Below, in pieces: positions 25,120-40,380 of a DNA stretch of 64,000 nt. The stretch lies in contig NZ_CP107945.1 of NCBI RefSeq assembly GCF_036057275.1, positions 4,960,001-5,024,000 of the forward strand. Reading direction: 5' to 3'. Positions within the stretch are counted from its first letter, which is position 1. Each line of letters begins with the position of its first letter. Origin of the DNA: Streptomyces sp. NBC_00390 (GTDB taxonomy: Bacteria; Actinomycetota; Actinomycetes; Streptomycetales; Streptomycetaceae). The translations under genes were made by a program, and so were the position numbers. The notes under the pieces were generated by a model. The model searched no databases. It saw only the letters and a program-made list of their open reading frames with translations, and was not told where the DNA came from.

Positions 25120-25138
25120 GCCGTGACCTCCCTTCCGG

Positions 25139-25387: not shown

Positions 25388-25487
25388 GAGGGCTCACATC
25401 CCTTCTCAGGGGCGGGTTTCGGGGGTTTGCGCAGGTGGACCGCTAGGCGCTAGTTGGCTGATCAGCGGACCCATGGGTTGCTAGTGG

Positions 25488-25529
25488 GGTTGCTAGACCT
25501 AGCGGGCGCGGGTGCTAGGTCTAGCAACC
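25488..25529. repeat. perfect 16-bp inverted repeat at the traB 3' end (terminator or clt)
   Basis: GGTTGCTAGACCTAGC at 25488-25503 and its exact complement at 25514-25529, loop 10 bases. It lies 9 bp downstream of the traB stop. The region around it is dense in CTAG. Besides ending traB transcription it could be the cis-acting transfer locus (clt), which in other Streptomyces plasmids lies beside traB and is bound by TraB. Confidence 0.55.
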
Positions 25530-25538
25530 TTGCTGGGC

Positions 25539-27617
25539 CTATGCGGCGGCCCGATCGGCGTTACGGCGAGTGATGGCAGCGGTGACCTCGGCGCGCTTGA
25601 TGCCGCGCCGGTTGGCGCCCTCGCCGTCGTCGGTCTGGCCCCAGACCTGGCCGGGCTTGATGCCCCAGGGCTTGAGTGCGGCGGTGACGTTCTCGCCCTG
25701 CCACCCGCCGTAGGTGTCGGGCTGGGCTGCGGCGAGACGGGTGGCGATGCGCTCGCACCACACGGACTTCTCGCCGTCCGCGATCACGTCGAGGACGTCG
25801 GTGAGGATGTCCGACCCGTTGGTCTTCTCGGGGCCGTGGCCGATGGCGTGGCCGGTGACGTTGCTGTACTCCTCGCGCGCCTGGCGGGCGCGGGCGACGA
25901 TGCGTTCGGCGGCGACCGCGTCGACGAACGCGGACGCGACGATGCGGGGGTCGTCGCCCTCGCCGGCCATCCAGCAGATGCCCCGATCCGACCGGGAGAA
26001 CATCGTGGCCCGGTACCCCGACTTGTACATGGACGTGCCGAGGACCATGTCGTTGGCGGGCTGCCCCATGACCTTGAGGCAGAACCTGAGCACGGCGTTG
26101 GCGCTGATGCCGGTGGGCAGGGACTTCGCGTCGGGGCGCTGGGTGCCGAACATGGCCACGATCCCGAGGGCGGGGCCGCGCTTGACCAGGTCGGTGCAGA
26201 TGGCCTCGATCTCCTTGCCGTGCTCCTCGTGCTCGAAGGGCACCTGGCACTCGTCGAAGCCGACGACGATCGGGTGCAGCCCGAGCGTCTTGTCACCGGC
26301 GAGTTCCGGGGTGACCTTGGACTCCGGGCAGCGGGTGCGCGGCAGGGACTTGATGACCTTCGCCCGGCGGCGCAGTTCCTCTTTCAGCTCCCGCAGCGTC
26401 TCGAGGACGTAGGCGATGTCGTCGTCTTCCTCGCCGGCGCGGTAGCGGTGGCAGACCGGTTCCAGGGCGCCGAAGTCGCCGGTGCCCTTGAAGTCGAACG
26501 CGTGGACTTCGGCCCGCGGATCGAGGGCGGCGATGAGCAGGAACAGCCGCATGAGGAACGTCTTGCCCATCCGCGGGATGGAGCCGACGACCACGGACGC
26601 GAACATGAGGGTGACGGCGACGTCTCGCATGCGCTGGTCGTTGCCGAACACGACCGGCTTGAACAGGTCCACCGTGCCGGTCTTGGCGAGCGGCCAGGCG
26701 GGTTTGGTGGTCTCGTTCATCGGCTTGTCCCCGACCCACAGAACGAGACGTCCCTCGTGCTGCTCGGGGTCCGGCGACGGCCACACGCAGCCGGTCTTCC
26801 TGCGCAGGCCGGACGCGAGGGGCTTGCGGGCCTCCATGATGTCCTCGGGCGTGACGCCGTAGGGCAGGTCGAGATCCGCGCGGTAGCCGGGCCCGTCCCG
26901 CACGATCTCGGACACGAACTTGAGCCCGTTCATGTCGCCGCCCTTCTTAATGGCAGCGGTGATCTTCGCGTTCCCGATCGAATCCAGGCCCCGGAGCACG
27001 ATCGAGCCGGTGAGCTTCTGCACCTCCGTCTTCAGCACCGCAGGGCCGACGACCGGGGCGTCGGGCTGCTGCCCGCCGATGCCGAGCAGGAGCACGCCGC
27101 CGGCGGCGAACGCGTACAGGAAAGCGGGCGCGAGGACGTACAGGTAGAGGGCGAACCCGACGCCGAACACGGCCGCGACCAGCGTGACGAGCCCGCGCAG
27201 GCGGATGCGTCCGGACCGAAGGCGGGCCAGGCGCATGTACTCCTCGACGTCCTCGGTGCGCACGGCGAACTCCCGCAGCGGGGCGGCCTCGCGGTCCCAG
27301 ACCCACCGGTTGGTGGAGGCGATGAACCGGCACGCGCCACGGGGCGACATCAGTGCGAGGCGGCCCGCATATACCGGGACGCGGACGCCATGGAACAAGG
27401 CGGCGTAGCCGAGGTTCGCGCCCGCGTGGCGGGCGGTGGCGAGGAAGTCGCGCCGGTTGGTGAGCCATCCGGCGAGCACCGGCTTGCGCTTCTCGATGCT
27501 CACCTTCGGGTCGGGAAGCGCCGGGTTGTCGACCGGCACCGGCACGGCCGGCGCGTCGTCGTCGCGGTCTATGTCGGGTACGGGCCGCAGGTGCGCGGCC
27601 GCGGATTCGTCGGTCAT
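25539..27617 (-). CDS. traB: TraB-like FtsK/SpoIIIE DNA translocase
   Basis: 692 aa. Single-protein conjugation motor of Streptomyces AICEs that moves double-stranded DNA between hyphae. Two TM helices lie at about residues 145-190. The motor domain has Walker A 'SIPRMGKTF' (Lys352) and Walker B 'IVVGFDEC' (Asp455-Glu456), plus 'FDFKGTGDF'. The C-terminal 80 residues form a winged-helix-like region ('WCERIATRLAAAQPDTYGGW') as expected for clt recognition. ATG at 27617 with GGAG upstream; the longer frame to 27812 runs into another gene. Transfer should be kept silent by the GntR repressor at 30553. Confidence 0.92.
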   Translation of the reverse strand: MTDESAAAHLRPVPDIDRDDDAPAVPVPVDNPALPDPKVSIEKRKPVLAGWLTNRRDFLATARHAGANLGYAALFHGVRVPVYAGRLALMSPRGACRFIASTNRWVWDREAAPLREFAVRTEDVEEYMRLARLRSGRIRLRGLVTLVAAVFGVGFALYLYVLAPAFLYAFAAGGVLLLGIGGQQPDAPVVGPAVLKTEVQKLTGSIVLRGLDSIGNAKITAAIKKGGDMNGLKFVSEIVRDGPGYRADLDLPYGVTPEDIMEARKPLASGLRRKTGCVWPSPDPEQHEGRLVLWVGDKPMNETTKPAWPLAKTGTVDLFKPVVFGNDQRMRDVAVTLMFASVVVGSIPRMGKTFLMRLFLLIAALDPRAEVHAFDFKGTGDFGALEPVCHRYRAGEEDDDIAYVLETLRELKEELRRRAKVIKSLPRTRCPESKVTPELAGDKTLGLHPIVVGFDECQVPFEHEEHGKEIEAICTDLVKRGPALGIVAMFGTQRPDAKSLPTGISANAVLRFCLKVMGQPANDMVLGTSMYKSGYRATMFSRSDRGICWMAGEGDDPRIVASAFVDAVAAERIVARARQAREEYSNVTGHAIGHGPEKTNGSDILTDVLDVIADGEKSVWCERIATRLAAAQPDTYGGWQGENVTAALKPWGIKPGQVWGQTDDGEGANRRGIKRAEVTAAITRRNADRAAA

Positions 27618-27656
27618 GCTGGTCTCTCTCCTGCTGCTCGAAGTGGTGGTCAGGGG

Positions 27657-27699
27657 CCCGGGGCGGCCGGGATGCTTGGCGGCTGTCGACCGCCCCGGG
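27657..27699 (-). terminator. hairpin before traB
   Basis: 10-bp arms (CCCGGGGCGG and complement) with a 23-base loop, between the 66-aa gene and traB. It may attenuate read-through into traB. Confidence 0.5.
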
Positions 27700-27705
27700 G
27701 CACAG

Positions 27706-27906
27706 CTACCTGCGGTTGCTGTTCTTCTTCTCGTCGAGCTCTTCGCGCTTGCGGGCCTTGGCGATGACCCGCTCGACCTTGCGTTCCAGGTCGCCCTGGT
27801 AGACCCGCTCACCGGCGATGCCGCGCTTGGCCATCCGGGCGACGTACCACGCGACCTGGGTCTTCTCGCCAGCAGTTAGGCGCGGTTCGTTCTCGTAACG
27901 GGCCAT
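27706..27906 (-). CDS. small basic AICE protein (66 aa)
   Basis: Helical and highly charged ('KVERVIAKARKREELDEKKNSNRR' type tail). There is no recognised domain. AAGGAGG seven bases before the ATG at 27906 makes translation likely. The ATG shares its A with the stop of the 52-aa gene (TGATG), so the two are coupled. Function unknown. Confidence 0.65.
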   Translation of the reverse strand: MARYENEPRLTAGEKTQVAWYVARMAKRGIAGERVYQGDLERKVERVIAKARKREELDEKKNSNRR

Positions 27907-28064
27907 CACTCGGCCTCCTTCGCGGCGGCCTCGACGATCGCGGCCGCGGTGGCGAGCTGGGCCCACACGGCGGCCTGCGTGAGGTTCTCCTCGGGCACCT
28001 TGTGGAAGTCGTCCTTGAAGGTCAGTAGCTTCTCGGCGCGCTCGCGGTATTCGTGGCTGGTCAC
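27906..28064 (-). CDS. tiny AICE protein (52 aa)
   Basis: GTG at 28064 with GGGAG upstream; product begins MTSHEYRERAEKLL and ends 'AIVEAAAKEAE', an amphipathic helical protein. It was found by reading the gap between the 66-aa gene and the SpdB-like gene. The stop is coupled to the next start by TGATG. Its codon use has the GC-rich third positions of its neighbours. Function unknown; small helical proteins of this kind are common between spd genes and traB. Confidence 0.6.
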   Translation of the reverse strand: MTSHEYRERAEKLLTFKDDFHKVPEENLTQAAVWAQLATAAAIVEAAAKEAE

Positions 28065-28104
28065 TTCTGCTCCCGTCCGGGGCCGGGCTGTCCGGCTCCC
28101 CTCA

Positions 28105-28127
28105 CCGCCCGCACGTGTGTCGGGCGG
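28105..28127 (-). terminator. short hairpin after the SpdB-like gene
   Basis: CCGCCCG and CGGGCGG around a 9-base loop, 13 bp after the stop at 28140. Weak; it may be attenuating only. Confidence 0.4.
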
Positions 28128-28139
28128 ATCGGGCAGCCG

Positions 28140-28523
28140 TCAGCGGCGGCGCCGGGCCTTGGCGATGTTCTTCGCCGCGGCCTTGCCGTCCGCGCCGCCG
28201 ACGCTCTTCACGACGGTGACGACGCCCCAGGCGCAGACGGAGGCGATCAGGGCGAGCAGGGCGAGGTTCGCGGCCATGGCGGTCAGTACGCCGACGAGCA
28301 GCGGGCCGAAGTAGACGCCCGCAGCGACAGCACCGGCGCCGACTCCGGAGCCGAGCGCGATGCGCTGCACCGTGCGGTCCGGCGGCGCGTGGTGCACGTG
28401 CTGGTGAACGACCTGCGGACCGCCGTAGGGCTGCGGCACAGCGGGCAGTTGGTCGGCCTGGACGTAGGTGTAGGTGCCGTCCGGGAGCTGCACCACCCGG
28501 GCAGGCTCAGGCAGCGATTCCAT
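28140..28523 (-). CDS. SpdB-like mobile element spread protein (127 aa)
   Basis: The N-terminus contains 'RVVQLPDGTYTYVQADQLP', a motif I recognise from the small Spd proteins of Streptomyces elements. Two TM helices follow (about residues 58-78 and 82-107), and the C-terminus is basic ('KNIAKARRRR'). Spd proteins spread the element along the recipient mycelium through septal walls. It overlaps the upstream RRQRL-type gene by 17 bp. Confidence 0.7.
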   Translation of the reverse strand: MESLPEPARVVQLPDGTYTYVQADQLPAVPQPYGGPQVVHQHVHHAPPDRTVQRIALGSGVGAGAVAAGVYFGPLLVGVLTAMAANLALLALIASVCAWGVVTVVKSVGGADGKAAAKNIAKARRRR

Positions 28524-28854
28524 CAGTGGTCCCTTCGGGATAGGCGCACGGCACGCAGGTGCCGAGCGAGGCAGGAATGACGTATCCGGCATCGAGCCCG
28601 CAGGCGGAGCAGGTGCGGCGCGCTTGCATGGCGCGGGCGAGTGCCACCCGGCGGCCAGGGGTCATGGGCCGGACCGGCAGAGCACGGTCAATGCGGTACA
28701 GGTAGGCGACCAACGGACCCCGGCGCCGCCGAGGCCGTTCCAGCTGCGCGGCGACGTCCTGCCCGCCCGGCCGCAGCCCGAGGGCGCGCAGCTGTCGGCG
28801 GGTGGCGTAGCCGTCCGGAGCGAGCCGCCACCGGTAGACGAGCAGCGTGCCCAT
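28507..28854 (-). CDS. RRQRL-motif zinc-binding AICE protein (115 aa)
   Basis: The 'YATRRQLRALGLRPGGQD' segment is a variant of the RRQRL motif, and the C-terminal 'RRTCSACG...GTCVPCA' gives two CxxC pairs for zinc. Proteins of this type are encoded in most streptomycete AICEs between spd genes; their role is unknown. ATG at 28854 shares its A with the stop of the upstream spdB (TAATG). Confidence 0.75.
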   Translation of the reverse strand: MGTLLVYRWRLAPDGYATRRQLRALGLRPGGQDVAAQLERPRRRRGPLVAYLYRIDRALPVRPMTPGRRVALARAMQARRTCSACGLDAGYVIPASLGTCVPCAYPEGTTDGIAA

Positions 28855-29717
28855 TACGCGGCCACGCGCTTCCACGCAGCTCGCAGCCGGACTTCGGATG
28901 CGGAGTGGCCGGCTGCGCGGAACCGGGTGGCCATCTCCCGGTAGGACAGTGCCGGGGTCTCGCTGTGCCGGATCTCGTCAACCAGCCGGTCAAGCTCTGC
29001 ATCCGTGAGCGCCGGGGCCGCACTCAGAGCGAGCACGGAAACGGGTTCGGTCGGCCCCCAGACCGGCAGCTCCCACGCCGGTGCGACACCGGCCGTGACG
29101 CGGGTCGTCACGCTGGTCAACGCCCTGCCGGTGTCCTCGCCGTCCCGCGCCGTCTCCAACGTCGACCACGCCCGCGAAAGCGTCTGTGCAGTCCTCGCTT
29201 GAACGCGTGCGACGCGCGCCCCGGCCGCCGTCACGGCCGTCAACCGAGTCTCCTCGGTGGCGGCCTCCGCCCGCAGCCGGGCGCGGGCCACGGCCGCTTC
29301 GTCGCGGGCCTCCTGCTGAATCCCCCGGATCGCCCCGAGCGCACCAGGAGTAAGCGCGGTCCGCTCCCACAGGCCGTGCACCAGCCACAGAGCCTTAGCC
29401 GCCACCGGCAACCAGGCGACCGCAAGCCACGCACCGGAGGACTCCTCAGCGGTGAGCGCGTGGGCGACCAGGACCCCGGTAGCGACCAGACCGAAGAACC
29501 AACCGACTGCGGTGACGGCGGTGGAGTGGTCGCCCTGCGCGGCGAGACGGCGTTCGTAGGCGAGGGTGGCGAGCCATCCACCGTCGATCCCAAGACCGAC
29601 CACGAGAGCGACCGGCCACGGCACCGCCCCACCCAGCCACATCACCACCACCGCGAGGGTGAGCACCATGGACACCGCCGTCATCGCGACGGCTGGCAAC
29701 ACAGTCTTGGCGTTCAT
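28854..29717 (-). CDS. SpdB family mobile element spread protein (DUF2637-like)
   Basis: 287 aa. Four TM helices lie in the first 125 residues ('AVAMTAVSMVLTLAVVVMWL', 'PVALVVGLGIDGGWLATLAYE', 'GWFFGLVATGVLVAHAL', 'AWLAVAWLPVAAKALWLVHGL'). A long coiled-coil region follows (about 130-200) and then a C-terminal helix-turn-helix-like part ('LSYREMATRFRAAGHSASEVRLRAAWKR'). This is the intramycelial spread protein class. ATG overlaps the DUF6284 stop (ATGA). Confidence 0.78.
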   Translation of the reverse strand: MNAKTVLPAVAMTAVSMVLTLAVVVMWLGGAVPWPVALVVGLGIDGGWLATLAYERRLAAQGDHSTAVTAVGWFFGLVATGVLVAHALTAEESSGAWLAVAWLPVAAKALWLVHGLWERTALTPGALGAIRGIQQEARDEAAVARARLRAEAATEETRLTAVTAAGARVARVQARTAQTLSRAWSTLETARDGEDTGRALTSVTTRVTAGVAPAWELPVWGPTEPVSVLALSAAPALTDAELDRLVDEIRHSETPALSYREMATRFRAAGHSASEVRLRAAWKRVAA

Positions 29718-29986
29718 GCCGCACCCCCGGACAGGCTCATCGTGCTGGCTGTGCGGTTCGTCAGGTCCCGGCGCGTGGCCAGCACCCGATTGCGGGCCCG
29801 GCGCCCGCGGCGGGCGTCCAGCTCGTTCACCGGCCGGTCCATGGCGGTGATCTGCGCGTCGAGCAGTTCGACCTCTGCCGTGATGAGCGGCATCTCGCTC
29901 TCGATCGCGTCCAGCTCCGCGGCCGTCGGCTCGCGGTCGAATTCGGGGGCGGTAACAAGCGCCTGAACAGCACCGATGTGCTTCAT
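29714..29986 (-). CDS. DUF6284 family AICE protein (90 aa)
   Basis: Starts MKHIGAVQALVTAPEFDREPT, which I recognise as DUF6284. A central coiled coil ('IESEMPLITAEVELLDAQI') is followed by a basic stretch ('DARRGRRARNRVLATRRD'). It is the first gene of the leftward transfer operon. The start at 29986 has GAGAGGAA upstream; the longer frame to 30055 passes through a hairpin and is rejected. Function unknown. Confidence 0.7.
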   Translation of the reverse strand: MKHIGAVQALVTAPEFDREPTAAELDAIESEMPLITAEVELLDAQITAMDRPVNELDARRGRRARNRVLATRRDLTNRTASTMSLSGGAA

Positions 29987-30023
29987 GAGTCGTGTTCCTC
30001 TCAGACAGGAACGGCTCAACACA

Positions 30024-30053
30024 GCGGCCCCGGTGTTCCAGCACCGGGGCCGC
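30024..30053. terminator. leader hairpin upstream of the transfer operon
   Basis: Perfect 12-bp arms (GCGGCCCCGGTG and complement) with a 6-base loop, 38 bp before the first gene of the transfer operon. It is in the transcribed leader if the promoter is at 30440-30530, so it could attenuate transfer transcription. Confidence 0.6.
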
Positions 30054-30446
30054 ACGCCGTTGAAGTCGGTAGTTCCGGCTCCCCTCGGCGCTGCTCGTAC
30101 GAGACGAGCAGCGGAGGCAACCGGCCGCAGCGAGTGCTGCGACGTTGTTCAGACCTCCGATTCGCGTGGTGCCGCTGACCCTGGGGAGGTCTGGTTCCCG
30201 GGGCGTAGGCGGCGTCAATGTCGGCCACGCGGTTCTTTAGAGCCGATGGCGTGTCCCCCTGCGCGGGGTGTGGGGCCCGGTTGTGACGCGGGCCCGGTCT
30301 CGGTCGGCTGGTCTCCACTCGCCTCGGCCGGGCGACTTCACGGCCGTGGTGCTGCGGTGGATCACGCTGTCCAGTTGTTGAGCACCGCCCCTGAGCAGCC
30401 CAAAGAAGGCCCTTAAGAGCACGGCACGACCATGCATGCCTTCCGT

Positions 30447-30522
30447 AGTCCTAGGACTGCGTGAGTCGCTAGTGAGACACTGCACCCACAGTCCCAGGAC
30501 TGTCAACAGTCCTGGGACTGTG
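30447..30522. promoter_or_regulatory. three GntR operators between divergent transfer operon and repressor gene
   Basis: AGTCC-YR-GGACT occurs three times: AGTCCTAGGACT 30447-30458, AGTCCCAGGACT 30490-30501, AGTCCTGGGACT 30508-30519. The last two together form a perfect 17-bp inverted repeat with a 2-base centre (30487-30522). They lie 31-106 bp before the GntR gene at 30553, in the only long gene-free stretch of the element backbone (29987-30552). The rest of this stretch (30054-30446) shows nothing I can name. Confidence 0.75.
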
Positions 30523-30552
30523 TTTCACTGGTCGCGTCAAGAGGAGGCTCGA

Positions 30553-31332
30553 ATGGCACCGAAGTGGCGGGAGCTGGCGGACAAGCTGGCGGACCGAATT
30601 AGGTCGGGTGAGTACGCGCCCGGTCAGCAGTTGCCCCACATCAGAGACCTCGTCGAAGCCGGGGAGGGGTCAAAATCCACGGTCCACGCGGCCTACAAGG
30701 CGCTGGAAGCGGAAGGGCTCATCACCTCGTCACGCGGTCACGGAACGCTCGTGCGGCAGCAGGCTCCGCTGAAGCGGCTCGGCATCGCGCGGTACGACAA
30801 GGCGAAGTGGCGCGACGGCGACGAAGTTGCGTTCATCGCCGATCGGGTGGCGTCGGGACGCGCCTATCGCCGCGGCGAGCAGACGCAGACCGTCTCCCGC
30901 GTCGCAGCCCCGCCGGCTGTCGCAGAGGCCCACGGCCTACCTGTCGGTGCCGACGTATACGCGCGCGCCCGGCTCGTGAAGGAGGGCGACCAGCCCACGC
31001 ATACCTTGACCAGTTACTACCGGCCCGACCATGTCGAGGGCACGCGCATCGTGGACCCCAAACCTGGTCCGGCCGGCCGCGGCGGTGGCTTCCGTGTTCT
31101 GTACGACGCCGGTTACGAGATCGACCACATGCGAGAGCAGCTCTTCGCGCGCGTCCCCACGGCGGATGAGGCGAAGCTCCTGCAGCTGACACCGGGCGAG
31201 TGGGTAGTCGAGCTGCACCGCACTACGTTCACGGCCGACGGCACGGTGGTGGAGTTCGCGATCGGCGTCCACGCTGCCACTCGCTTTGCGTGGGAGTACG
31301 ACTTCCAGGTGCCGGACTCAGCAAGGGATTAG
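30553..31332 (+). CDS. GntR/HutC family repressor (KorSA-like)
   Basis: 259 aa. N-terminal winged helix ('KWRELADKLADRIRSGEYAPGQQLP' then 'GSKSTVHAAYKALEAEGLITSSRGHGTLV') and C-terminal UTRA effector domain (about residues 95-250). In pSAM2 the equivalent KorSA keeps replication and transfer genes silent. The three AGTCCYRGGACT palindromes just upstream are the natural binding sites, giving autorepression and repression of the divergent transfer operon. ATG at 30553 follows GAGGAGG; the effector is unknown. Confidence 0.88.
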   Translation: MAPKWRELADKLADRIRSGEYAPGQQLPHIRDLVEAGEGSKSTVHAAYKALEAEGLITSSRGHGTLVRQQAPLKRLGIARYDKAKWRDGDEVAFIADRVASGRAYRRGEQTQTVSRVAAPPAVAEAHGLPVGADVYARARLVKEGDQPTHTLTSYYRPDHVEGTRIVDPKPGPAGRGGGFRVLYDAGYEIDHMREQLFARVPTADEAKLLQLTPGEWVVELHRTTFTADGTVVEFAIGVHAATRFAWEYDFQVPDSARD

Positions 31333-31343
31333 GAGGCGCGGCA

Positions 31344-31988
31344 GTGATCTCGGAGCAGTCGTGGGCGGATGCCCAACTCCTGTGGGACTTCAACCAGATG
31401 CACCACGAACCGCGTCCGTGCTCGGTAGCCATCGGTCTTGGGAGCCATGACTTGGGCGTGGCCGACACGACGGTCAATCTGTACAAACGGGGGATGGCGC
31501 CGCTCATTGTCTTCACGGGAGCCACCAGTCGCACGACACATGACCGCATGCCGCGCGGCGAGGCGGTGCACTACCGCGAGCGGGCGCTGGAGTTGGGCGT
31601 GCCCGGGGATGCCGTACTTGTGGAACCTCGTGCTCGCAACACTGGTGAGAACATCCGCTTCTCGCGGGAACTACTCGCAGAGACAGGCGTCGGCGTCTCG
31701 TCTGTGTTGCTGGTGAGCAAGCCGTATGAGGAACGCCGTTCCTACGCCACAGCCCGCAAGCTGTGGCCCGATGTCGAAATTGTGAGCGCGTCGACGCCAA
31801 TGACTCTGGCTGATTACGTGGACTCGATCGGGAATTCCCAGTTGGTGATTGACATGCTTGTGGGAGCACTGCAGCGACTGGTTGTCTATCCGCAGCAGGG
31901 TTTCTTGGTCGCTCAGGAAATTCCCGCAGGCGTCGTAGCAGCGTATGAGCGTCTGCGTGCTGAGGGTTTCACAAGCCGCATTGTGTAA
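31344..31988 (+). CDS. YdcF/SanA-like DUF218 protein
   Basis: 214 aa. Family landmarks are 'VAIGLGSHDLGVADT' at the N-terminus, 'IVFTGATSRTT', 'EPRARNTGENIRFSRELL' (the conserved Asn-Thr-x-Glu-Asn) and 'VLLVSKPYEERRSYATARKLWP'. Most DUF218 proteins are membrane-linked and act on envelope glycans, but this one has no TM helix. AGGAGG at 31331-31336 supports GTG 31344, 11 bp after the repressor stop, so it is co-transcribed with the repressor. YdcF genes next to the GntR repressor recur in AICEs; the function there is unknown. Confidence 0.82.
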   Translation: MISEQSWADAQLLWDFNQMHHEPRPCSVAIGLGSHDLGVADTTVNLYKRGMAPLIVFTGATSRTTHDRMPRGEAVHYRERALELGVPGDAVLVEPRARNTGENIRFSRELLAETGVGVSSVLLVSKPYEERRSYATARKLWPDVEIVSASTPMTLADYVDSIGNSQLVIDMLVGALQRLVVYPQQGFLVAQEIPAGVVAAYERLRAEGFTSRIV

Positions 31989-32054: not shown

Positions 32055-33437
32055 TCAAAAGCGGCGGATGAAATTCGACTCGCAGTCAGGGCACAGGTCG
32101 GGGCCATCCTCATTAGGTACATGCGGGTTACCACAGTAAGAGCATGAGGTCAGTTCAGTGGAATCCCACGTACCCGAGCATCCGAAACACAGGTACTGCA
32201 TAGAGGGTTGACTGGCTTCCCTGCTTCCCCCCACCTCTTCCTGGTCGTCATTCTCGTCTATCGTTCTCTTGTGGGCGGCAAAGGTTTCCACTCCGCCGAC
32301 CATAGCCAGCTCTGGACAGGCCACGCAGGCGAGCACCGGAGGGTCTGCACCATCCTTCATCGTAGTGTAAGCCGACAGGCCCAGAATCATCTCTGCATAC
32401 TTACGAGCCATGCTCGCACCGTCCGCAGTGACGTCGCAAAAGTGACACGTTGCATAGCAATCTCCGTCGGAAGCCAGGGCGAACTCGTCACAGTCTGGGC
32501 ACTGCACAGTGAGGTTCGGTTCGAGATCGCGACGAAGGCGCTCAGCACGTTTCCGTACGAAGGATTTTATGTCCCCCACTTTCTCTTTAATCGTCTCGAT
32601 TTCCTGCTCAAGCTCAGAATCTACGTGGCGCTTAAGGTGCTGGTGGATGAAGGTCAGGAGAAAGTCAAGGACTTCTGCGGCAGATGCCTCGACCGCTGGT
32701 GCCGGTTGAGTTAGTCCGTCATGTTGAAGTTGGTTACGACTGCGTCGGAGCCGGTTTATTGCCTTAGTAGCGTCGCTGCTCACCTGCATGTCGAGGACTC
32801 TGTCGAGGCGGTCGATGGCCTCATCTATTCCGCAACTCTCGAAGTCGCGAGCATGATTCCTTTTGACGCTGGCGTCCCTTGGACTGGCCCAGATGAGAGC
32901 CCAGTGCTCCAGGCTCAGTCGGGCCTTGAGTAGCACCTCTGTGGCTGCGTACAGGTGCAGGACGGCGTACTTGAGGTCCCGCGGCCGAGGTCCAGGCATC
33001 ACCGTAAGATGATCGACCACACTTCGGAGGTAGTCGATCCCGTTGACCACAGGTGGGAAACGGACCTGTGGCGGGGCGGGCCGCTTCAGGTCCTTGTCGG
33101 CCGTTGGGACGCTGTCGCTTGCGTGGTGCCCGAAACTCGCCGACTCCTTAGCGCGATCGTCGCGGTATCCCATCCGACTGGCGTGGGCGTGAAGCCACCC
33201 GCGTTGCCGTATAGCTCCGATGATATCGCCGCGTTGCAAGCCAGCTACGGCGTTACCGTGGACGTAGCCCAGGTTCTGGTGTGCCTTAGAGGGCCCACCC
33301 TGGAAAAGGAGCGGGTAGCAAGGATTGTCATCCGTATGCCTCTCATATTTATCCCTGATGAAACTGACAAGCACCTCGATCTCAGAATGCAACTCGTCAG
33401 CCACGGTCGTCGGTCTTTCCGGTTGATGCTGTGCCAT
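32055..33437 (-). CDS. HEPN-like protein with C-terminal zinc ribbons, candidate defence RNase
   Basis: 460 aa. The middle (about residues 150-265) is helical and contains 'LHLYAATEVLLKARL' followed by Arg234-Asn-x-x-x-His239 ('RNQLQH'), which fits the Rx4-6H motif of HEPN ribonucleases. After it come a coiled coil and cysteine clusters that look like three zinc ribbons: 'CPDC'/'CHFC' from residue 313, 'CVAC', and 'CFGC'/'CSYC'/'CPDC' at the end. No single family covers the protein. Start: ATG 33437, seven bases after GGAGG, is preferred over GTG 33440. GC is lower than in the element backbone. It sits among nuclease genes, which favours an anti-phage role; that is inference. Confidence 0.6.
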   Translation of the reverse strand: MAQHQPERPTTVADELHSEIEVLVSFIRDKYERHTDDNPCYPLLFQGGPSKAHQNLGYVHGNAVAGLQRGDIIGAIRQRGWLHAHASRMGYRDDRAKESASFGHHASDSVPTADKDLKRPAPPQVRFPPVVNGIDYLRSVVDHLTVMPGPRPRDLKYAVLHLYAATEVLLKARLSLEHWALIWASPRDASVKRNHARDFESCGIDEAIDRLDRVLDMQVSSDATKAINRLRRSRNQLQHDGLTQPAPAVEASAAEVLDFLLTFIHQHLKRHVDSELEQEIETIKEKVGDIKSFVRKRAERLRRDLEPNLTVQCPDCDEFALASDGDCYATCHFCDVTADGASMARKYAEMILGLSAYTTMKDGADPPVLACVACPELAMVGGVETFAAHKRTIDENDDQEEVGGSREASQPSMQYLCFGCSGTWDSTELTSCSYCGNPHVPNEDGPDLCPDCESNFIRRF

Positions 33438-33529
33438 CACGTCGCCTCCGTGAAATCAGGTTCAAATAATCGGCAAAGCGAGAAACGGCGGCTGCTTTTA
33501 TCGGCCGACGCGTCGTGTAGGCCGGCTAT

Positions 33530-34471
33530 TCAGTCGCTCTCGGAAAGAATCTCTGCGACGGGCATAAAGCAGTGGCCAGTCTCGCTCGCATGCCGCTTCT
33601 TTCGATGGACGAGTTCATTCAACCGGATGCGCTGGTCCAGTACGGCCATAAAGTCGAGGCCGTCCATCGTGATGAATGGAGTGCTATAGCTGTACACCGC
33701 CAGGGCGTCGGAAGTGAAGCCGCTCAGGCTGATATACAGACCCAGCGTGTTCTTGCCTTTGCGCTCAATGTTGGTTTTGAAAACATCCAACAGTGGCCGA
33801 CCGATTCTTTCTTTCCACCACTTGGCTTCGAGCACGTAATGGTCCGTGTCAAAGGAGAATGCTCCATCGATCTGCTCGTGATCCAGGCTGTAAGACGCCC
33901 GTGGCTCAAGGTCATACAGGGCGAAGAGTTCGTTGATGAAGCCCTCGAAGTCGCGGCCCCTTTGATGCACATCGGTGGCGCCGTGCATCATCATGAAGCG
34001 CTGCTTCAGGTCCTCGTGGGCATGGGCGAACGCGCGGCCATCCTGGGCCTTTTTCGCGCTCTCGGTGATGCTGGCCGCGTGTGCCTCGTGCTCCGCGATG
34101 ACTTCGCGCTGTTTGGCAGTCCAACGCCTCAACTCAGCTACGGCAGAAATGGCCTTGGCCGCCATGATCTCACTGTCGGGCTGCGAGGCGAGGTTCGGAA
34201 AGGTCTCCATTTCGGCGATGTCGAGCATGAGCGCAACCGTTAGATCGAGGTAACGGGTTTCGTTGGCTCGCAGGAGATTGGCAAGCTGGCCCGACACCTC
34301 GCGTTTGGTGGCTGTGAAGTCCAGCTGCGCCAGCAACTCGCTGTGATCCTTCAGCATTGCCCGGACGTACATCTCGAACGGCTTCTTGTTCCAGAAGATC
34401 GCTGTCAGCGCTTCGACCAGCGCGACGTACGCGCTTGGGTTCATCGTCTTCTTACGCGCGCTGGACTGCAT
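33530..34471 (-). CDS. PD-(D/E)xK restriction endonuclease-like protein
   Basis: 313 aa. The N-terminal half is helical with a coiled coil (about residues 100-165). The C-terminal half has a motif-I Glu in 'GRDFEGFINELF', then Asp202 ('QIDGAF') and Glu215-Ala-Lys217 ('VLEAKWW'), the D-x12-ExK core of Mrr-like and other restriction nucleases. Residues after it ('KTNIERKGKNTLGLYISLSGFT') resemble the Mrr strand that follows the active site. ATG 34471 has AAGGAGG upstream. It lies 92 bp upstream of the HEPN-like gene on the same strand; the two may form one unit. The target is unknown. Confidence 0.75.
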   Translation of the reverse strand: MQSSARKKTMNPSAYVALVEALTAIFWNKKPFEMYVRAMLKDHSELLAQLDFTATKREVSGQLANLLRANETRYLDLTVALMLDIAEMETFPNLASQPDSEIMAAKAISAVAELRRWTAKQREVIAEHEAHAASITESAKKAQDGRAFAHAHEDLKQRFMMMHGATDVHQRGRDFEGFINELFALYDLEPRASYSLDHEQIDGAFSFDTDHYVLEAKWWKERIGRPLLDVFKTNIERKGKNTLGLYISLSGFTSDALAVYSYSTPFITMDGLDFMAVLDQRIRLNELVHRKKRHASETGHCFMPVAEILSESD

Positions 34472-34774
34472 GGTCCCCTCCTTGGCAGGCCACCCCGTAC
34501 CCACTGTCACCAGTCTGTTACGGTACCGCCCCACCCGCTGATGATCTGCCCGTATGACAGCGTGATGTCCGAGGTGTTCTTCGGCTCCTGCGCTGCTTCG
34601 AGGTCCATCCCCCACGGGCGAGTGCTGCGGTGTGAAGCTGTCCGCCAGTTGCGGCCGCGGCCACCTTCTGGCCAGCATGCCGATATCCGACTCCTGTTGA
34701 CGGTAAACAGCCAGGTCACAGACTGGATCGGCAGCACCCAGAGGCCGGTCTTGAAAGCCGTTCCCCGGGTGCTG

Positions 34775-34807
34775 GCTCCTGCCCCCGAGGCATCCAGGGG
34801 CAGGAGC
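34775..34807 (-). terminator. terminator of the ScoMcrA-like gene
   Basis: Perfect 11-bp arms (GCTCCTGCCCC and complement) with an 11-base loop, 12 bp after the stop at 34820. The remaining gap, 34472-34774, shows no gene and should hold the promoter of the endonuclease at 34471. Confidence 0.7.
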
Positions 34808-34819
34808 ATGTGCGTGGCG

Positions 34820-36490
34820 CTAGCCGAGCTTCTCCGCGTGGAGGCGCTGGGCCGTGGCTGCGAGGAGGCGTCGCAGCTTCTCCTTGTTCTCGCCGTAGGT
34901 CTTGAGGGCGTGGCAGTTAGGGCACAGAGCGATCATGTTCCAGGGGACATCAGGCCCGCCCTTGGCCAGGTCTCGAACGTGGTCGACCTGCAAGATTGGC
35001 AGACCGGCTGTGGTTCGCTCGGTGGGGTGGCCGGCGCACTCAGGACTCTCACATCTGTTCTTGCAGCGCTTGATGGTTGCCGCTCTCGCGCTGGGGTCGC
35101 GGACGTAGCGGTCGGCGAGTGTCGGCTTCTTCAGCTGGCCTCGTTGCTTGGCGTTCGCTTCCGCGTTCTGTGTCAGGCGCCTGTACGCGTCCTCGTCGCT
35201 CTCCTCGGTGTCATGTGCTTCGGGATCGAGGTCGCTTGGGCGGTAGTCGCCCGTGTCGTCGTGCAGTTCACCTGTGTCAGCGTCCAGTGCTGACAGGACC
35301 TCGGAGGGCCATGTCTCGCGCTCTGGGGAGGGGACGGGAGCTAGTACCCAGAGGAATTCTCGGCGAGGCTGTTTATCGGCTCCGACGCCCCACCGGAGCC
35401 GGCGTTGCGCGATGACGGCCCACGTCTCGAAGCTGAACTGTCCCTGGAACGGCTTGTGCCAGTAGCGCAGTGGGCGGCCGGCAGCCTGGTACTCGGCCAT
35501 GAGCTCGTTGCCGTCAGTGATTTCCTGGTCGCCAGAGAGTCCGTCTCCTACGTAGGCGATCCAGTCTGTGTCCGGGATGCGTCCGTCGGCATAGGGACCT
35601 TTGTCGTCCGAGAAGACACTTAGAATGCCGTCGGCGAGGCATCCGATTCCTGCCATCTTCTGGCCGCCGTGGGCGCGCCAGATGGCGTCCCGGTCCTTGA
35701 AGCTTTCACCGAGCTGCGGGCGTAGAGCATCCGCCCACCTGCCGGCGAGCAAGTCGTGCAGGCCGAAGTCCCTCAACAAGCCGGTGGAAAGGGGATAGAA
35801 GTAGCGCAGGAGTAGTCCGGCCGCGGCTCCAGCCGCAGCGTCAGGATGCGACCGCAGCAGAGCGTAGTCATGTTCGCGTAGGCCACCCGACGGATCCACC
35901 CGGTTCAAGGACTCCAGGGTGGGCCGTCGCCCCCGGCTGGTGAGGGTGAGCTCTTGCGTGGGGCCCACGGTCCACAAGTCATCGCGCACTAGCGCCCAAA
36001 ACGGATACCGGGTGCTGTCCACACCATCCTCGACGTGGGCGTATTTCTCCATCAGCGGTGCCACCACATCGCGCGTAACCGACCAGGGCCGCATACGGGG
36101 TGCCCCGGCCAACGCCTGCCCGATAGCCCAGAGGAGAAGCACGGGACGGTGCAACGCCGTACGGACCCCACGACGTGCTGGCCGCACGTCCCCGACCCGC
36201 CGTTGGAAGGTCTTAGGCGGCTCCACGACAGTAAAGCCTTCCCTCCTCAGCCAAGCCACCGCACCCTTCAGGCCACCACTGAGCTGTGAAGGCTTGAGTG
36301 CACTTCCGAAGTCATAGAGGTGAGCAACGCCGGCTATGGCCTTGGAGTCGTACTGCCGCCCCTCGTGAACGAGTAGGTAGGTAATAGCCGCGCGGTAGCC
36401 GTAGGCGTCACGGAACGCCCCCTGCCCGAGCCGGTCGTGCTCTGCAATCGCCCGCAGGATCCCCGCGCGCGTGATCTCGGAAGGTGCCAT
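34820..36490 (-). CDS. ScoMcrA-like type IV restriction endonuclease
   Basis: 556 aa, full length for the family. Order: N-terminal head domain (residues about 1-90), DNA sulfur-binding domain with 'HRPVLLLWAIG' (His114-Arg115-Pro116) and 'RYPFWAL' (Tyr162-Pro163), SRA-like region with 'YVGDGLSGDQ' and 'GRPLRYWHKPFQGQF' (about 275-385), and C-terminal HNH nuclease with His504, Asn518 and His527 plus two CxxC-type zinc ligand pairs. ScoMcrA of S. coelicolor cleaves phosphorothioated and Dcm-type methylated incoming DNA, so this protein should restrict modified foreign DNA. All key residues are present. It is transcribed away from the ParB-like gene. Confidence 0.9.
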   Translation of the reverse strand: MAPSEITRAGILRAIAEHDRLGQGAFRDAYGYRAAITYLLVHEGRQYDSKAIAGVAHLYDFGSALKPSQLSGGLKGAVAWLRREGFTVVEPPKTFQRRVGDVRPARRGVRTALHRPVLLLWAIGQALAGAPRMRPWSVTRDVVAPLMEKYAHVEDGVDSTRYPFWALVRDDLWTVGPTQELTLTSRGRRPTLESLNRVDPSGGLREHDYALLRSHPDAAAGAAAGLLLRYFYPLSTGLLRDFGLHDLLAGRWADALRPQLGESFKDRDAIWRAHGGQKMAGIGCLADGILSVFSDDKGPYADGRIPDTDWIAYVGDGLSGDQEITDGNELMAEYQAAGRPLRYWHKPFQGQFSFETWAVIAQRRLRWGVGADKQPRREFLWVLAPVPSPERETWPSEVLSALDADTGELHDDTGDYRPSDLDPEAHDTEESDEDAYRRLTQNAEANAKQRGQLKKPTLADRYVRDPSARAATIKRCKNRCESPECAGHPTERTTAGLPILQVDHVRDLAKGGPDVPWNMIALCPNCHALKTYGENKEKLRRLLAATAQRLHAEKLG

Positions 36491-36845
36491 GACCAACACC
36501 GTAGATCAGGCCACTGACACAGCCTCGGGGATGCACACCAACTGGCATGGTTGGCCTTGGCTGCCGGTCAGGGCAGCGCCTTCGACTCGCCTCCGCGCCA
36601 GCACGGATGCTGCAGGAGGATCCACGCCCAGGTCTCTTGTCCCGGCCCGCGCACGGCAGCGTCGATACGCGCACAGGTGGTAGCACTCCAACGGTGCTCT
36701 CGTGTCACAAGCGGAACACAACGACCCGATTTTTCAAGCCACTTGAAGCCGGCAGCGATCGCATGATTGAATCCCTGGCGCGCTGTATCCCCAAATCCCC
36801 GGCGATGCCGACAATCCCCTGAACGCAGCGCGGAAGGGCACCTCC
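36491..36845. other. 355-bp divergent intergenic region in the cargo block
   Basis: Lies between the start codons of the ScoMcrA-like gene (minus) and the ParB-like gene (plus), so promoters for both are expected. A 71-codon minus-strand frame with several Cys (36506-36721) begins only at a TTG without a ribosome site and is not accepted. No repeats stand out. Confidence 0.4.
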
Positions 36846-37658
36846 ATGCCTAAGCCTCAGTACGCGTACGAGCTCCCGGTCCACCAAGTGGACTATGGGA
36901 AAGAGGTCGCGATCAGCGACCTCAAGATCGACCCTCAAGCGCAGCGCACCCTCAACGAGGGGCGAGCGCAGCGCATCGCGGACAACATCGTCCCGGAGGC
37001 CGTCGGTCTCATCATCGTGTCCCAGCGGGACAACGGCGAGATGTACATCGTGGACGGGCAGCACCGCTGCCGTGCCTGCCAACTGGCCGGCATGCGCACC
37101 GTAAAGACCGAGATTCACTATGGGCTGACCCTGGATCAGGAAGCGATCCTCTTCCTGATCAAGAACCGTGAGTCACACAAGCCGAGGCCTATCGATGAAT
37201 ACCACGTAGGTCTCACCGGCGGCGTTTCCCTCTTCGTCGACACTGACCGGGTCCTGAAGAAGCACCAGCTCTCCCTCGGCTCGACATCTACCAACGGTGT
37301 GGGGGCCGTGTCCGGAGTCCTTCGGATTACGGAGCGATTCGGCGCCACGGTCCTCGACCGCACCCTCTGGGTTGCCGAGGAGGCTTTCGGCCGCTCCCCG
37401 GAGACCTGGGACGGCATGTTCCTCGGTGGCCTCGGCCAGTTCTTGGGCCGGTGGGGCAACATCATCGATGACAAGGAACTCGCCCGAAAGATCCTGGCCA
37501 TGGGAGTGGCGTCCAAGTGGCGCGCCGAAATCCTCAGTCAGTCGTCGCGTGGCGGCTTCAACAACAGCGGCACCGGGTCGCGCGTGACGACGGCTTATCG
37601 ACTCGTCATCAGGGCCTGGAACAAGGGACGCAGGGCCGCGAATCAGATCGCGGAGTAG
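36846..37658 (+). CDS. ParB-like nuclease-fold protein with DGQHR motif
   Basis: 270 aa. The N-terminal half is a ParB/sulfiredoxin-like domain: 'ISDLKIDPQAQRTLNEGRAQRIADNI', then 'MYIVDGQHRCRACQLAGM' with the nucleotide-binding/catalytic DGQHR signature at about residue 61. The C-terminal half is helical and unassigned, similar to DUF6551-type proteins. It lacks the helix-turn-helix of chromosome-segregation ParB, so partitioning is unlikely. DGQHR also marks DndB, the regulator of DNA phosphorothioation, which is notable beside a sulfur-sensing restriction gene. GGAAGGG precedes the ATG at 36846. Confidence 0.75.
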   Translation: MPKPQYAYELPVHQVDYGKEVAISDLKIDPQAQRTLNEGRAQRIADNIVPEAVGLIIVSQRDNGEMYIVDGQHRCRACQLAGMRTVKTEIHYGLTLDQEAILFLIKNRESHKPRPIDEYHVGLTGGVSLFVDTDRVLKKHQLSLGSTSTNGVGAVSGVLRITERFGATVLDRTLWVAEEAFGRSPETWDGMFLGGLGQFLGRWGNIIDDKELARKILAMGVASKWRAEILSQSSRGGFNNSGTGSRVTTAYRLVIRAWNKGRRAANQIAE

Positions 37659-37679
37659 CTCGCCAGAGTCAGCCGGTGT

Positions 37680-37698
37680 CTCTCCGAAACGCGGAGAG
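37680..37698 (+). terminator. short hairpin after the ParB-like gene
   Basis: CTCTCCG and CGGAGAG around AAACG, 22 bp after the stop at 37658. The rest of the gap to 38044 contains no gene I can support; it includes two in-frame-less ATG runs only. Confidence 0.5.
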
Positions 37699-38044
37699 GC
37701 AGGAGTCATTACGGCTTGACGGAGCAGAAGCAGTCTCGTGCCAAGCTACCAGCATGGAAACTGACGGATACCCCGAGGTGGTAACTGCGCCACGCTCAGT
37801 GGGTGTTCTGGCTCGTCCTGTTGCTCACCCAGATAGGCATGAGCTCCAGGACGACATTCGCAGTCTCCTCTGTCACCACACTGCGTGGTCTCGCAAGCTG
37901 TGGTGCTCAGGTATTCCTGCGAATCTGGAAGCTGTCTGTGTCTTGCATCTCTGAATGCTCAAGGCGGGCAGTTCTGTGCCGCGGCAGGTGTGCTCTCGAC
38001 GTGCTGTTTCGTCTTGCCGGCCCCAGTGAAGGGTCAGCAAAACC

Positions 38045-38383
38045 GTGTTGTTCCAGCTTCCTGACGGCGCCCCTGTGTGGGTGATCATTCCCGTGGTTGC
38101 CGTCGGTCTTGTCCTTGCCGTGGCGCGAGTCGTCAAGAACCTCCCCAAGGACGCGATCAAGAACTTTTTCGAGCACCGCACAAAGGTCAACGAGATCATT
38201 GCCCACGACACGAAGGGACGGGTCGCGGCCGTACAACGACAACGACTCGTGTTCATGGGGTTCACGTTCGTATGCGTGGCCGTAGTCACCCTTGTCCTTG
38301 CGGCATCACGTAGCACCGAGGCTACGGCGCCGTCCCCGCAGCCTCAACCGGCCAGTTCCCAACCTTCGCAGGCTCCCCGCTGA
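38045..38383 (+). CDS. small two-TM membrane protein (112 aa), cargo
   Basis: GTG at 38045; TM helices at residues about 11-28 ('VWVIIPVVAVGLVLAVA') and 69-87 ('LVFMGFTFVCVAVVTLVL'), separated by a basic cytoplasmic loop, and a Pro/Gln/Ser-rich tail outside. No known family. It is the last gene before the right end. Small membrane proteins are common effectors in abortive-infection and superinfection-exclusion systems, but nothing in the sequence proves this. The ribosome site (GAAGGG) is rather distant. Confidence 0.55.
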   Translation: MLFQLPDGAPVWVIIPVVAVGLVLAVARVVKNLPKDAIKNFFEHRTKVNEIIAHDTKGRVAAVQRQRLVFMGFTFVCVAVVTLVLAASRSTEATAPSPQPQPASSQPSQAPR

Positions 38384-38646: not shown

Positions 38647-38738
38647 CTGCTAGACCCAGGTGTCTAGCCACATCCGGTTGCGCCACTCGTCGAGCGGGAT
38701 CGTCTGGCCGGTGTAGATCGGATAGAAGTAGATGAAGT
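38647..38738. repeat. attR: element-supplied pmt 3' end
   Basis: Matches attL over 92 bp with one mismatch at 38665, which turns a CTG Leu codon into the rare CTA without changing the protein. The repeat covers the last 28 codons of intact pmt, its stop codon and 3 bp beyond. Confidence 0.92.
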
Positions 38739-40380
38739 TCCACACGATCAGCAGCACCAGCACGCCCGCGCCGATCGCGCCGATCGCCCGGCGGCGTTCG
38801 TCCGATCCCGGTGGGCCGAGGATCGCGCCGATCATCATCGCGACCGCCAGACACAGGAACGGCACGAACACGACCGCGTAGAACAGGAAGATCGTGCGCT
38901 CCTGGTAGTGCAGCCACGGCACCCAGCCGGCCAGGAAGCCGCAGAGGATCGCGCCCGCGCGCCAGTCGCGGCGGAACAGCCAGCGCCACAGGACGTAGCA
39001 CAGCGCGAAGCACGCCGCCCACCACAGCAGGGGGGTGCCCAGTGCCAGCACCTCGCTGGCGCACTTGTCGACCGCGTCCGCCGGGCAGCCCCTCGTGCCC
39101 GGCTTCGGGTCCTCGTAGTAGTACGAGACCGGGCGGCCCAGCACCAGCCAGCTCCACGGGTTCGACTCGTAGGTGTGCCCGGAGGTCAGCTTGACGTGGA
39201 AGTCGAAGACCTGGGTCTCGTAGTGCCACAGGCTGCGCCACCAGTCCGGGAACAGCCAGCTCCAGCTGCTGTCCTGACCGGCTCCCTTGGTCGCCCAGTC
39301 CCGGTGGTACCCCTTGTCCGTGACGATCCAGCCGGTCCAGGTCGCGATGTACGTGGCGATCGCGACCGGCACCGTGGAGACGAACGCCGGCAGCAGATCC
39401 TTCTTCAGGACCGCCGCATACGGGCGTACCGCGCCCGCTGTGCGGCGCGAGCCGACGTCCCAGAGCACGCTCATCACACAGAACGCGGCCATCACGTACA
39501 GGCCGTTCCACTTGGTGCCCGCGGCCAGTCCCAGCAGCACACCGGTCACGAGCCGCCACGGGCGCCAGCCCAGCCGCAGGGTCTCCGCGACCGTCGCATC
39601 GGGCCGCAGCACGCCGTCCGCATCCACGGGCAGCGCCGCGGCGAGCCTGCGCCGCGACCGGTCCCGGTCCAGGAGCAGCGCCCCGAACGCCGCCAGCACG
39701 AAGAACATCAGCACCAGGTCGAGCAGTGCGGTGCGGCTCATCACGAAGTGCAGACCGTCCACCGCCATCAGCAGACCGGCGAGGCAGCCGAGGAATGTGG
39801 AGCGGAACAGCCGCCGCCCGATCCGGCAGAGCATCAGCACCGACAGCGTGCCGAGCAGGGCGACCATGAAGCGCCAGCCGAACGGCGTGAAGTCGAACAT
39901 CTTCTCGCCGAGGCCGATGACCCACTTGCCGACCGGCGGATGCACCACATAGCCGGGATCGGTGGGGATCGCGATGTCCGCCCCGCCCGGTTCCAGGATC
40001 TTCTTGTCGATTTCCTTGGGCCAGCTGCCCTCGTACCCCTGGTTGATCAGCGCCCAGGCGTCCTTGGCGTAGTACGTCTCGTCGAATATCACCGCATGCG
40101 GCTTGCCGAGGTTCCAGAACCGCAGCACGCCCGCGAGCAGGGCGACCAGCACCGGGCCGACCCAGGAGAAGATCCGCAGCAGCGGGTCCGCATCCCCGGG
40201 GCGGATGCCGAACACCGGCCACAGCCGGTCGGAGGGGCGCGTGTACGGCGGTACCAGGCGCTCACGCAGCCCGATCACGGGCCGGGGCACATAGCCGAAT
40301 CTGCGCAGCCGCTGCTCCCAGCCGGGCGGCTGCGGGGCGGCGTCCTTGCCCTGAAGGGTCTGAGGCGCGGTACTGGTCAC
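38650..40380 (-). CDS. pmt: protein O-mannosyltransferase Pmt (GT39)
   Basis: 576 aa polytopic membrane enzyme that transfers mannose from polyprenyl phosphate mannose to secreted proteins. The N-terminal catalytic loop carries the conserved Asp-Glu in 'IFDETYYAKDAW', and 'HPPVGKW' follows. About eleven TM helices and a C-terminal GT39 four-helix block complete the family layout. GTG start at 40380. In S. coelicolor Pmt activity is needed for phiC31 infection. The AICE has replaced the last 28 codons and the terminator, leaving the protein complete. It is divergent from rsmI. Confidence 0.93.
   Translation of the reverse strand: MTSTAPQTLQGKDAAPQPPGWEQRLRRFGYVPRPVIGLRERLVPPYTRPSDRLWPVFGIRPGDADPLLRIFSWVGPVLVALLAGVLRFWNLGKPHAVIFDETYYAKDAWALINQGYEGSWPKEIDKKILEPGGADIAIPTDPGYVVHPPVGKWVIGLGEKMFDFTPFGWRFMVALLGTLSVLMLCRIGRRLFRSTFLGCLAGLLMAVDGLHFVMSRTALLDLVLMFFVLAAFGALLLDRDRSRRRLAAALPVDADGVLRPDATVAETLRLGWRPWRLVTGVLLGLAAGTKWNGLYVMAAFCVMSVLWDVGSRRTAGAVRPYAAVLKKDLLPAFVSTVPVAIATYIATWTGWIVTDKGYHRDWATKGAGQDSSWSWLFPDWWRSLWHYETQVFDFHVKLTSGHTYESNPWSWLVLGRPVSYYYEDPKPGTRGCPADAVDKCASEVLALGTPLLWWAACFALCYVLWRWLFRRDWRAGAILCGFLAGWVPWLHYQERTIFLFYAVVFVPFLCLAVAMMIGAILGPPGSDERRRAIGAIGAGVLVLLIVWNFIYFYPIYTGQTIPLDEWRNRMWLDTWV

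Follow-up and report, generated by a model that had tools for sequence, protein, structure and literature searches.

A cargo bay with candidate defence genes at the right end of a pmt-integrated Streptomyces AICE

The right-end interval of the element

The stretch of DNA analysed here, referred to as the window, comprises 64,000 nucleotides of the 8.7-Mb genome of Streptomyces sp. NBC_00390 (contig NZ_CP107945.1, positions 4,960,001 to 5,024,000); its same-genus relatives are Streptomyces. The window carries an actinomycete integrative and conjugative element (AICE) that is inserted at the 3′ end of pmt. A first-pass annotation had described five genes at the right end of this element, outside the conserved AICE backbone, as a candidate defence island in which three genes bear nuclease signatures. 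Indeed, all five genes were present there as intact open reading frames (ORFs), and the catalytic residues proved to be intact in the products of three of them, P0001, P0002 and P0003. In window coordinates, the cargo genes and the features that delimit them are:

32055–33440, minus strand: P0001, HEPN (DUF3644/HEC-08-like) protein with C-terminal zinc ribbons (PADLOC HEC-08, 4e-20)
33530–34471, minus strand: P0002, N-terminal helical domain, coiled coil and Mrr-type PD-(D/E)xK nuclease, 313 aa (ORF to 34678; Pfam Mrr_cat, 1.2e-7)
34820–36499, minus strand: P0003, ScoMcrA orthologue with sulfur-binding, SRA-like and HNH domains (PADLOC PDLC03662, 1066 bits, full length)
36846–37658, plus strand: P0004, DGQHR/DUF6551 ParB-like protein (Pfam DUF6551, 1.6e-8)
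38045–38383, plus strand: P0006, small membrane protein that has two hydrophobic stretches and is the conserved partner of P0004 (adjacency to P0004 homologues)
19199–19289: attL, remnant of the 3′ end of pmt and left copy of a direct repeat of 91 bp (90/91 identical to 38648–38738)
38648–38738: attR, right-hand repeat copy, located at the pmt end (repeat comparison)
38650–40380, minus strand: pmt, protein O-mannosyltransferase, the integration target, with its stop codon within attR (Pfam PMT, 2e-21; PMT_4TMC, 9e-24)

Since the two copies of the 91-bp repeat mark the ends of the element, all five cargo genes lie inside it. The repeat corresponds to the 3′ end of pmt, stop codon included, so that an intact pmt is retained on the right-hand side of the element. 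Related elements likewise carry this target at either end. The integration site is thus the 3′ end of pmt rather than a tRNA gene. In S. coelicolor, Pmt (SCO3154) is needed for infection by phage phiC31 (PMC5882110), and the pmt gene of the window is its putative orthologue; the element and its cargo are therefore located at a phage-relevant locus.

The HEPN and Mrr genes had a GC content of 0.58 and the other three cargo genes one of 0.61–0.65, as compared to 0.69 in the backbone of the element and 0.71 in its flanks. This indicates that, even relative to the element, the cargo is foreign. In addition, the coding-composition score of the cargo was lower than that of many backbone genes. An argument on co-transcription from the positions of terminators was not available, as the sites returned by simple scans did not outnumber those in shuffled sequence.

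Integrases in other sampled Streptomyces genomes were 71–82% identical to the window integrase, and the sibling AICEs concerned share the pmt target. In these siblings, the interval between the regulatory gene and pmt held differing genes: an AbiU/AIPR gene (1.8e-125) in L177, a locus cut off short of attR; a Schlafen-AlbA (SLFN_AlbA_2) protein and a protein combining the N-terminal domain of ScoMcrA with HNH in L181; MrcB_N and NOV_C in L189; and YaaC in L183. The sibling elements turn what would be an inference from a single locus into a comparative one: in this family of pmt-integrated Streptomyces AICEs, the interval next to attR acts as a cargo bay, which is repeatedly refilled with differing defence-type genes and can therefore be mined for defence candidates.

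The remainder of the element is made up as follows:

20386–21642, minus strand: AICE tyrosine integrase (Pfam Phage_integrase, 1.7e-11)
22116–31988: AICE backbone as a whole (Pfam and synteny with sibling elements)
22116–23288, minus strand: DUF3631 ATPase (Pfam DUF3631, 4e-63)
23650–24552, minus strand: Prim-Pol (Pfam Prim-Pol, 4e-48)
25539–27617, minus strand: FtsK/TraB-like (FtsK_SpoIIIE, 0.009, below the Pfam cut-off; aligned and in synteny with the TraB-like genes of siblings)
28140–30055, minus strand: Spd-type genes, a backbone component
30553–31332, plus strand: GntR/UTRA (Pfam GntR, 1e-15)
31344–31988, plus strand: DUF218 (Pfam DUF218, 6e-18)

The integrase and flanking att repeats, the replication module and the FtsK-type transfer protein that characterise an AICE are all present, and the gene make-up (integrase, Prim-Pol, DUF3631, FtsK/TraB-like, Spd-type, GntR and DUF218) identifies the element as such; excision and conjugal transfer are predicted. 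At the attL end, a small gene (19478–20071) has homologues that elsewhere adjoin recombinase-like genes and sometimes HEPN genes. It was considered as a HEPN partner and rejected, as it flanks HEPN homologues in a few loci, but its homologues elsewhere adjoin recombinase-like genes where a HEPN gene is lacking; it looks like a gene of the integration module. A second related element, with an integrase that is ~60% identical, is present at another site in the same genome (L194; G000:C1:2932340-2933527). Lastly, the cargo bay of one sibling pmt-AICE encodes an 808-aa protein (L188:4584-7010) without Pfam or PADLOC match, in which RNNWLH is a possible HEPN motif.

Signatures of the cargo genes

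Besides HEC-08, P0001 matched DUF3644 (3e-19, residues 131–240) and PDC-S64 (7e-14, reaching residue 336), while a search against Pfam at E≤1 gave only weak unrelated matches. Across 20 homologues, R235, N236 and H240 of the RNxxxH motif were invariant, as were eight cysteines (C314, C317, C332, C335, C372, C375, C418 and C421). Of 79 further HEPN loci, drawn from GTDB genomes and viral contigs, 78 retained the strict motif RNx[LFMIV]xH. An AlphaFold2 model of P0001, built from a 67-sequence alignment, reached a mean predicted local distance difference test score (pLDDT) of 82.5; it displayed disorder over residues ∼40–110, a confident helical domain with pLDDT >90 over residues 121–300, and zinc-ribbon-like strands. 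In a Foldseek search with this model, HEPN-superfamily proteins (HEPN/MNT toxins, Csm6 and MtlR) appeared at ranks 1, 2, 5, 7, 17, 22 and 32 and filled most of the credible top places, the best E-value being 0.12 and none of the matches being significant singly. Foldseek against viral models returned nothing coherent. No minimal nucleotidyltransferase gene, as in HEPN/MNT toxin-antitoxin systems, was found beside P0001, the neighbours being the DUF218 gene and the gene for the Mrr-type nuclease.

DUF3644 was set out as a HEPN family in 2013 (PMC3710099). In the same work, the family EC042_2821 (Table 1) overlaps DUF3644, is fused to winged helix-turn-helix, restriction endonuclease and zinc-ribbon domains, and occurs in restriction-modification operons. 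No experimental report on HEC-08 or PDC-S64 was found in the literature searched. The first-pass statement that the HEPN and PD-(D/E)xK genes match no nameable defence system holds for the two as a pair, but not for the HEPN gene, which falls into the catalogued candidate families HEC-08, DUF3644 and PDC-S64. Relatives of P0001 with HEPN domain and zinc ribbons were present on Serratia and Salmonella plasmids without an adjacent nuclease gene, which supports action of P0001 as a single gene. In about ten loci, a gene judged by eye to be tyrosine-recombinase-like followed the HEPN homologue on its 3′ side, directly or almost so, in some cases overlapping it by a few bases (among them L080, L101, L111, L118, L123, L128, L129, L142 and L146). 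Conceivably, the HEPN gene could be self-mobile through such an adjoining recombinase-like gene.

P0002 matched Mrr_cat (PF04471) with 32.2 bits against a Pfam cut-off of 21, and the domain was present in 9/9 homologues. Its start is most likely located at 34471 and not at 34678, because AAGGAGGGG is found just upstream of this ATG and the homologues begin there. The residues D271 and E284-x-K286 (382-aa numbering), which correspond to D202, E215 and K217 from the likely start, were invariant. The P0002 model (pLDDT 68.6, four-sequence alignment) was weaker than that of P0001, with a confident helical N-terminus and coiled coil, and its Foldseek neighbours were PD-(D/E)xK proteins, namely EndoMS/NucS, the R.BspD6I small subunit, MspJI and BbvCI. 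An assignment of the N-terminus as an effector-associated domain was rejected, since no Pfam model matched this region in any of the 9 homologues. Homologues that are 72–81% identical exist, and nucleotide comparison demonstrated that P0002 travels between unrelated contexts as a single-gene block of ∼1 kb. Split, truncated or in-frame-stop homologues were also observed (L062, L063, L064 and copies in genomes G170 and G115), the two parts in L063 being separated by an insertion-element-like stretch. Loss of P0002-type genes seems to be frequent.

P0003 gave a full-length phmmer match to PDB 5zmm (residues 5–558), with RYPFW and QVDHV..NMIALCPNCH conserved; it has the sulfur-binding domain (SBD)-SRA-HNH architecture of ScoMcrA, with the sulfur-contact and HNH residues. 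S. coelicolor ScoMcrA recognises sulfur and cytosine modification, upon which the HNH domain cleaves, and it restricts modified DNA (PMC3009677, PMC6224610). Encoded by Sco4631 near attR of SLP1 (Gi11) in Streptomyces coelicolor, it blocks establishment of dnd-bearing DNA and makes coexistence with dnd genes impossible (PMC3009677). No dndC homologue was detected in the host genome of the window, as expected if ScoMcrA is active; dnd is sporadic anyway, and this is weak evidence. Among seven other loci examined, the ScoMcrA orthologue was located beside AICE regulatory genes in three (L239, L242 and L243).

The two remaining genes form the conserved pair of the island, a module in its own right. 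In five genomes (G224, G205, G191, G159 and G138), a P0006 homologue immediately followed the P0004 homologue, and a separate search with P0006 gave strong matches that were confined to P0004-bearing genomes (p about 1e-4). The call of P0004 as a DGQHR ParB-like protein was borne out by the DGQHR motif, with D70, G71, H73 and R74 invariant in 9 homologues, and by a ParB-like region; it can be refined to membership of DUF6551 with weak similarity to DndB. A DndB function of P0004 was not supported, given 21.9 bits to the DndB model against a cut-off of 29.1 and the missing dndC. Relatives of P0004 occur in mycobacteriophages and staphylococcal phages. In three loci (L247, L249 and L251), genes in the vicinity of the P0004 homologue encode a Vsr-like N-terminus (MSRQRSRNTEVEMALRRALHAAGLRYRVH or a similar sequence), which suggests another restriction-related context.

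Distribution of the HEPN and Mrr genes

The HEPN and PD-(D/E)xK genes had been proposed as the two parts of an unnamed defence system. They are indeed encoded on the same strand, and the reported gap of 92 bp amounts to 89–92 bp depending on the start codon. Among 247 Streptomyces genomes, a P0001 homologue was present in 29 and a P0002 homologue in 20, whereas both were present in 3, including the source genome. Without the latter, co-occurrence was at chance level (2 genomes seen, 2.2 expected), and in these two genomes the homologues were megabases apart or on different contigs. In the neighbourhoods fetched from this sample the other gene was never present, the two being adjacent in the source genome only, and a P0002-type gene was likewise missing from the surroundings of all 79 further P0001 loci; in one of these loci (L136), a different Mrr-domain protein was encoded six genes from the HEPN homologue. 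Moreover, homologues of P0002 reach 72–81% identity and the nearest one of P0001 is at 46%, which argues for different recent histories. Recurrent adjacency in other genomes, by which the first-pass annotation had suggested the pair be checked, was therefore not observed, and P0001–P0002 as a conserved pair is rejected on co-occurrence and neighbourhood. Scattering of single homologues, never near defence genes, had been named as the outcome that would speak against the proposal; the homologues are indeed scattered singly, but in places they do lie near defence genes. The cargo genes were probably acquired separately.

In two genomes (G140 and G176), the P0002 homologue was preceded by a gene whose 181-aa product bears the HEPN-like motif RNACAH (L055:9755-10300 and L056:10024-10569). 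The mobile block common to both was 94% identical over 1.77 kb and consisted of exactly the P0002 homologue and the 181-aa gene, which was present in 2/214 genomes, both times beside the P0002-type nuclease. Two relatives on Rhodococcus plasmids keep RNxxAHGNR and have no annotated restriction or P0002-type gene adjacent. The 181-aa protein was rejected as a relative of P0001, since hhalign gave no profile similarity, and it had no match in the PDB.

Homologues of P0001 and P0002 also occupy hotspots in a family of Streptomyces prophages (L201–L218) in which the terL, portal, scaffold and major head genes are conserved. The gap between terL and portal held P0002 homologues in four prophages (L201, L206, L209 and L059) and a component of PD-Lambda-3 in one; the gap between portal and scaffold held a P0001 homologue in one (L214) and type I restriction systems in three (L206, L212 and L218). 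Both gaps also contain varied other genes, such as L215:5115-6944 (ATPase-like by eye), L202:6851-7780 and L207:6516-7880, and the varied occupants of the two hotspots could be screened for new defence systems.

A probable stack of independent conflict genes and its known relatives

With a probability of roughly 0.6, we consider that five independently acquired and independently acting conflict genes fill a cargo bay that this pmt-integrated AICE holds between its regulatory module and attR; the activities, triggers and phenotypes of their products are predictions from domains, intact catalytic residues, mobility and hotspot occupancy. The earlier notion of defence-type cargo on an AICE is supported through family membership and position, with ScoMcrA near the SLP1 attR, the sibling cargo and the prophage hotspots. 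By orthology, P0003 would most likely act like ScoMcrA: its SBD and SRA-like domains would read phosphorothioate or modified cytosine and HNH would cut nearby, so that establishment of modified DNA would be blocked. P0002 is probably a solitary Mrr-type DNA nuclease, modification- or structure-dependent, that is regulated by its helical N-terminus. P0001 is probably a single-gene abortive-infection RNase, a role proposed because its HEPN motif is as described in PMC3710099. Its zinc ribbons might sense or bind nucleic acid or protein, sensing being a guess, and this would release the HEPN nuclease for RNA cleavage. P0004 and P0006 would act as a separate conserved module alongside the three nucleases. 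Judging from these sequence signatures, the cargo stack probably blocks phages or other mobile DNA.

Several observations weigh against this explanation. In many sibling AICEs (L178, L179, L180 and L186), no defence gene could be recognised in the bay. P0004 and P0006 matched no PADLOC model. Bona fide defence genes, counted from a table of families and not of proteins, were located within four genes of HEPN homologues in about 4–5 of 130 cases as compared to 0/130 for random genes, which is suggestive but not significant (p 0.06–0.12); they comprised a type I methyltransferase, PtuA, SduA, PDC-M01A and possibly a type IIG gene. Finally, the prophages were found by searches with P0001, P0002 and portal genes, and the occupancy fractions are consequently biased, although the range of occupants is still informative.

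The cargo could alternatively serve the element and not its host, by excluding rival AICEs, plasmids or modification islands, or by making loss of the element costly. The exclusion of dnd-bearing DNA by SLP1 ScoMcrA, the undetected dndC in the source genome and the several restriction-like genes among the cargo of sibling elements are in agreement with this idea. However, homologues of P0001 and P0002 also reside in prophages, chromosomes and plasmids outside AICEs, which fits general defence, and we regard service to the element as rather unlikely. These readings are not exclusive, as the biology of ScoMcrA fits both protection of the host from phage and protection of the element from rivals. 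Less likely still is a two-component abortive-infection system in which recognition or cutting of invading DNA by the Mrr-type protein would switch on the HEPN RNase. The shared strand, the short gap and the common GC content of 0.58 of P0001 and P0002 would suit such a system, as would the 1.77-kb block that carries only the P0002 homologue and the RNACAH protein in two other genomes. Against it stand the co-occurrence at chance, the adjacency in the source genome only and the 0/79 further HEPN loci, as well as the missing profile similarity of the 181-aa protein to P0001 and its Rhodococcus relatives, which are not beside an annotated P0002-type gene. We likewise give little credence to a broader version, in which nucleases of the P0002 clade would use interchangeable HEPN partners (DUF3644-type with zinc ribbons here, small and unrelated HEPN-like in the two other Streptomyces) in a two-step system where PD-(D/E)xK DNA recognition or cleavage licenses HEPN RNA cleavage. 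It is similarly improbable that the cargo genes are passengers without a present role that accreted at a tolerant site and are heading to decay. Their low GC content and coding-composition score and the split or truncated P0002 homologues elsewhere would be expected of passengers, but all five ORFs are intact, P0001 and P0002 have good ribosome-binding sites and the signature residues are all kept.

ScoMcrA as AICE cargo near attR was already known, as was the HEPN family (PMC3710099), a candidate in PADLOC. To this we add the cargo bay of pmt-AICEs, the prophage hotspot evidence for P0001 and P0002, the P0004–P0006 module and the refutation of HEPN plus PD-(D/E)xK as a conserved unit. With solitary HEPN-zinc-ribbon and Mrr genes beside a characterised enzyme, which is a possible positive control, the island offers a clean actinobacterial case for experiments.

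Among the known families, P0001 shares the HEPN domain with RNxxxH motif with DUF3644/EC042_2821, HEC-08 and PDC-S64. In contrast to DUF3644/HEC-08, the actinobacterial clade is marked by a variable N-terminus and a zinc-ribbon tail of several parts, and the HEC-08 match spans just residues 132–240 of P0001. P0002 resembles the type IV-like restriction endonucleases of the Mrr_cat family in its PD-(D/E)xK core with D...E-x-K, its solitary gene and its presence in defence hotspots; it differs from them by a coiled coil and a helical N-terminus without Pfam or solved-structure match, and the PADLOC type IV model matched weakly (0.011). P0004 has the DGQHR motif and ParB-like N-terminal region in common with DndB/DGQHR proteins and phage ParB-like nuclease proteins, but it scores under the curated cut-offs set for DndB and DGQHR, its genome lacks a detectable dndC and it is paired with a small membrane protein. 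The closest counterpart of the whole arrangement is SLP1, which, like the window element, is an AICE-type element with ScoMcrA as cargo near the right attachment site; P0003 is a full-length orthologue of the SLP1 enzyme. The target of SLP1, however, is a tRNA-Tyr gene and that of the window element is pmt, where ScoMcrA is accompanied by the Mrr, HEPN-zinc-ribbon, DGQHR and membrane protein genes.

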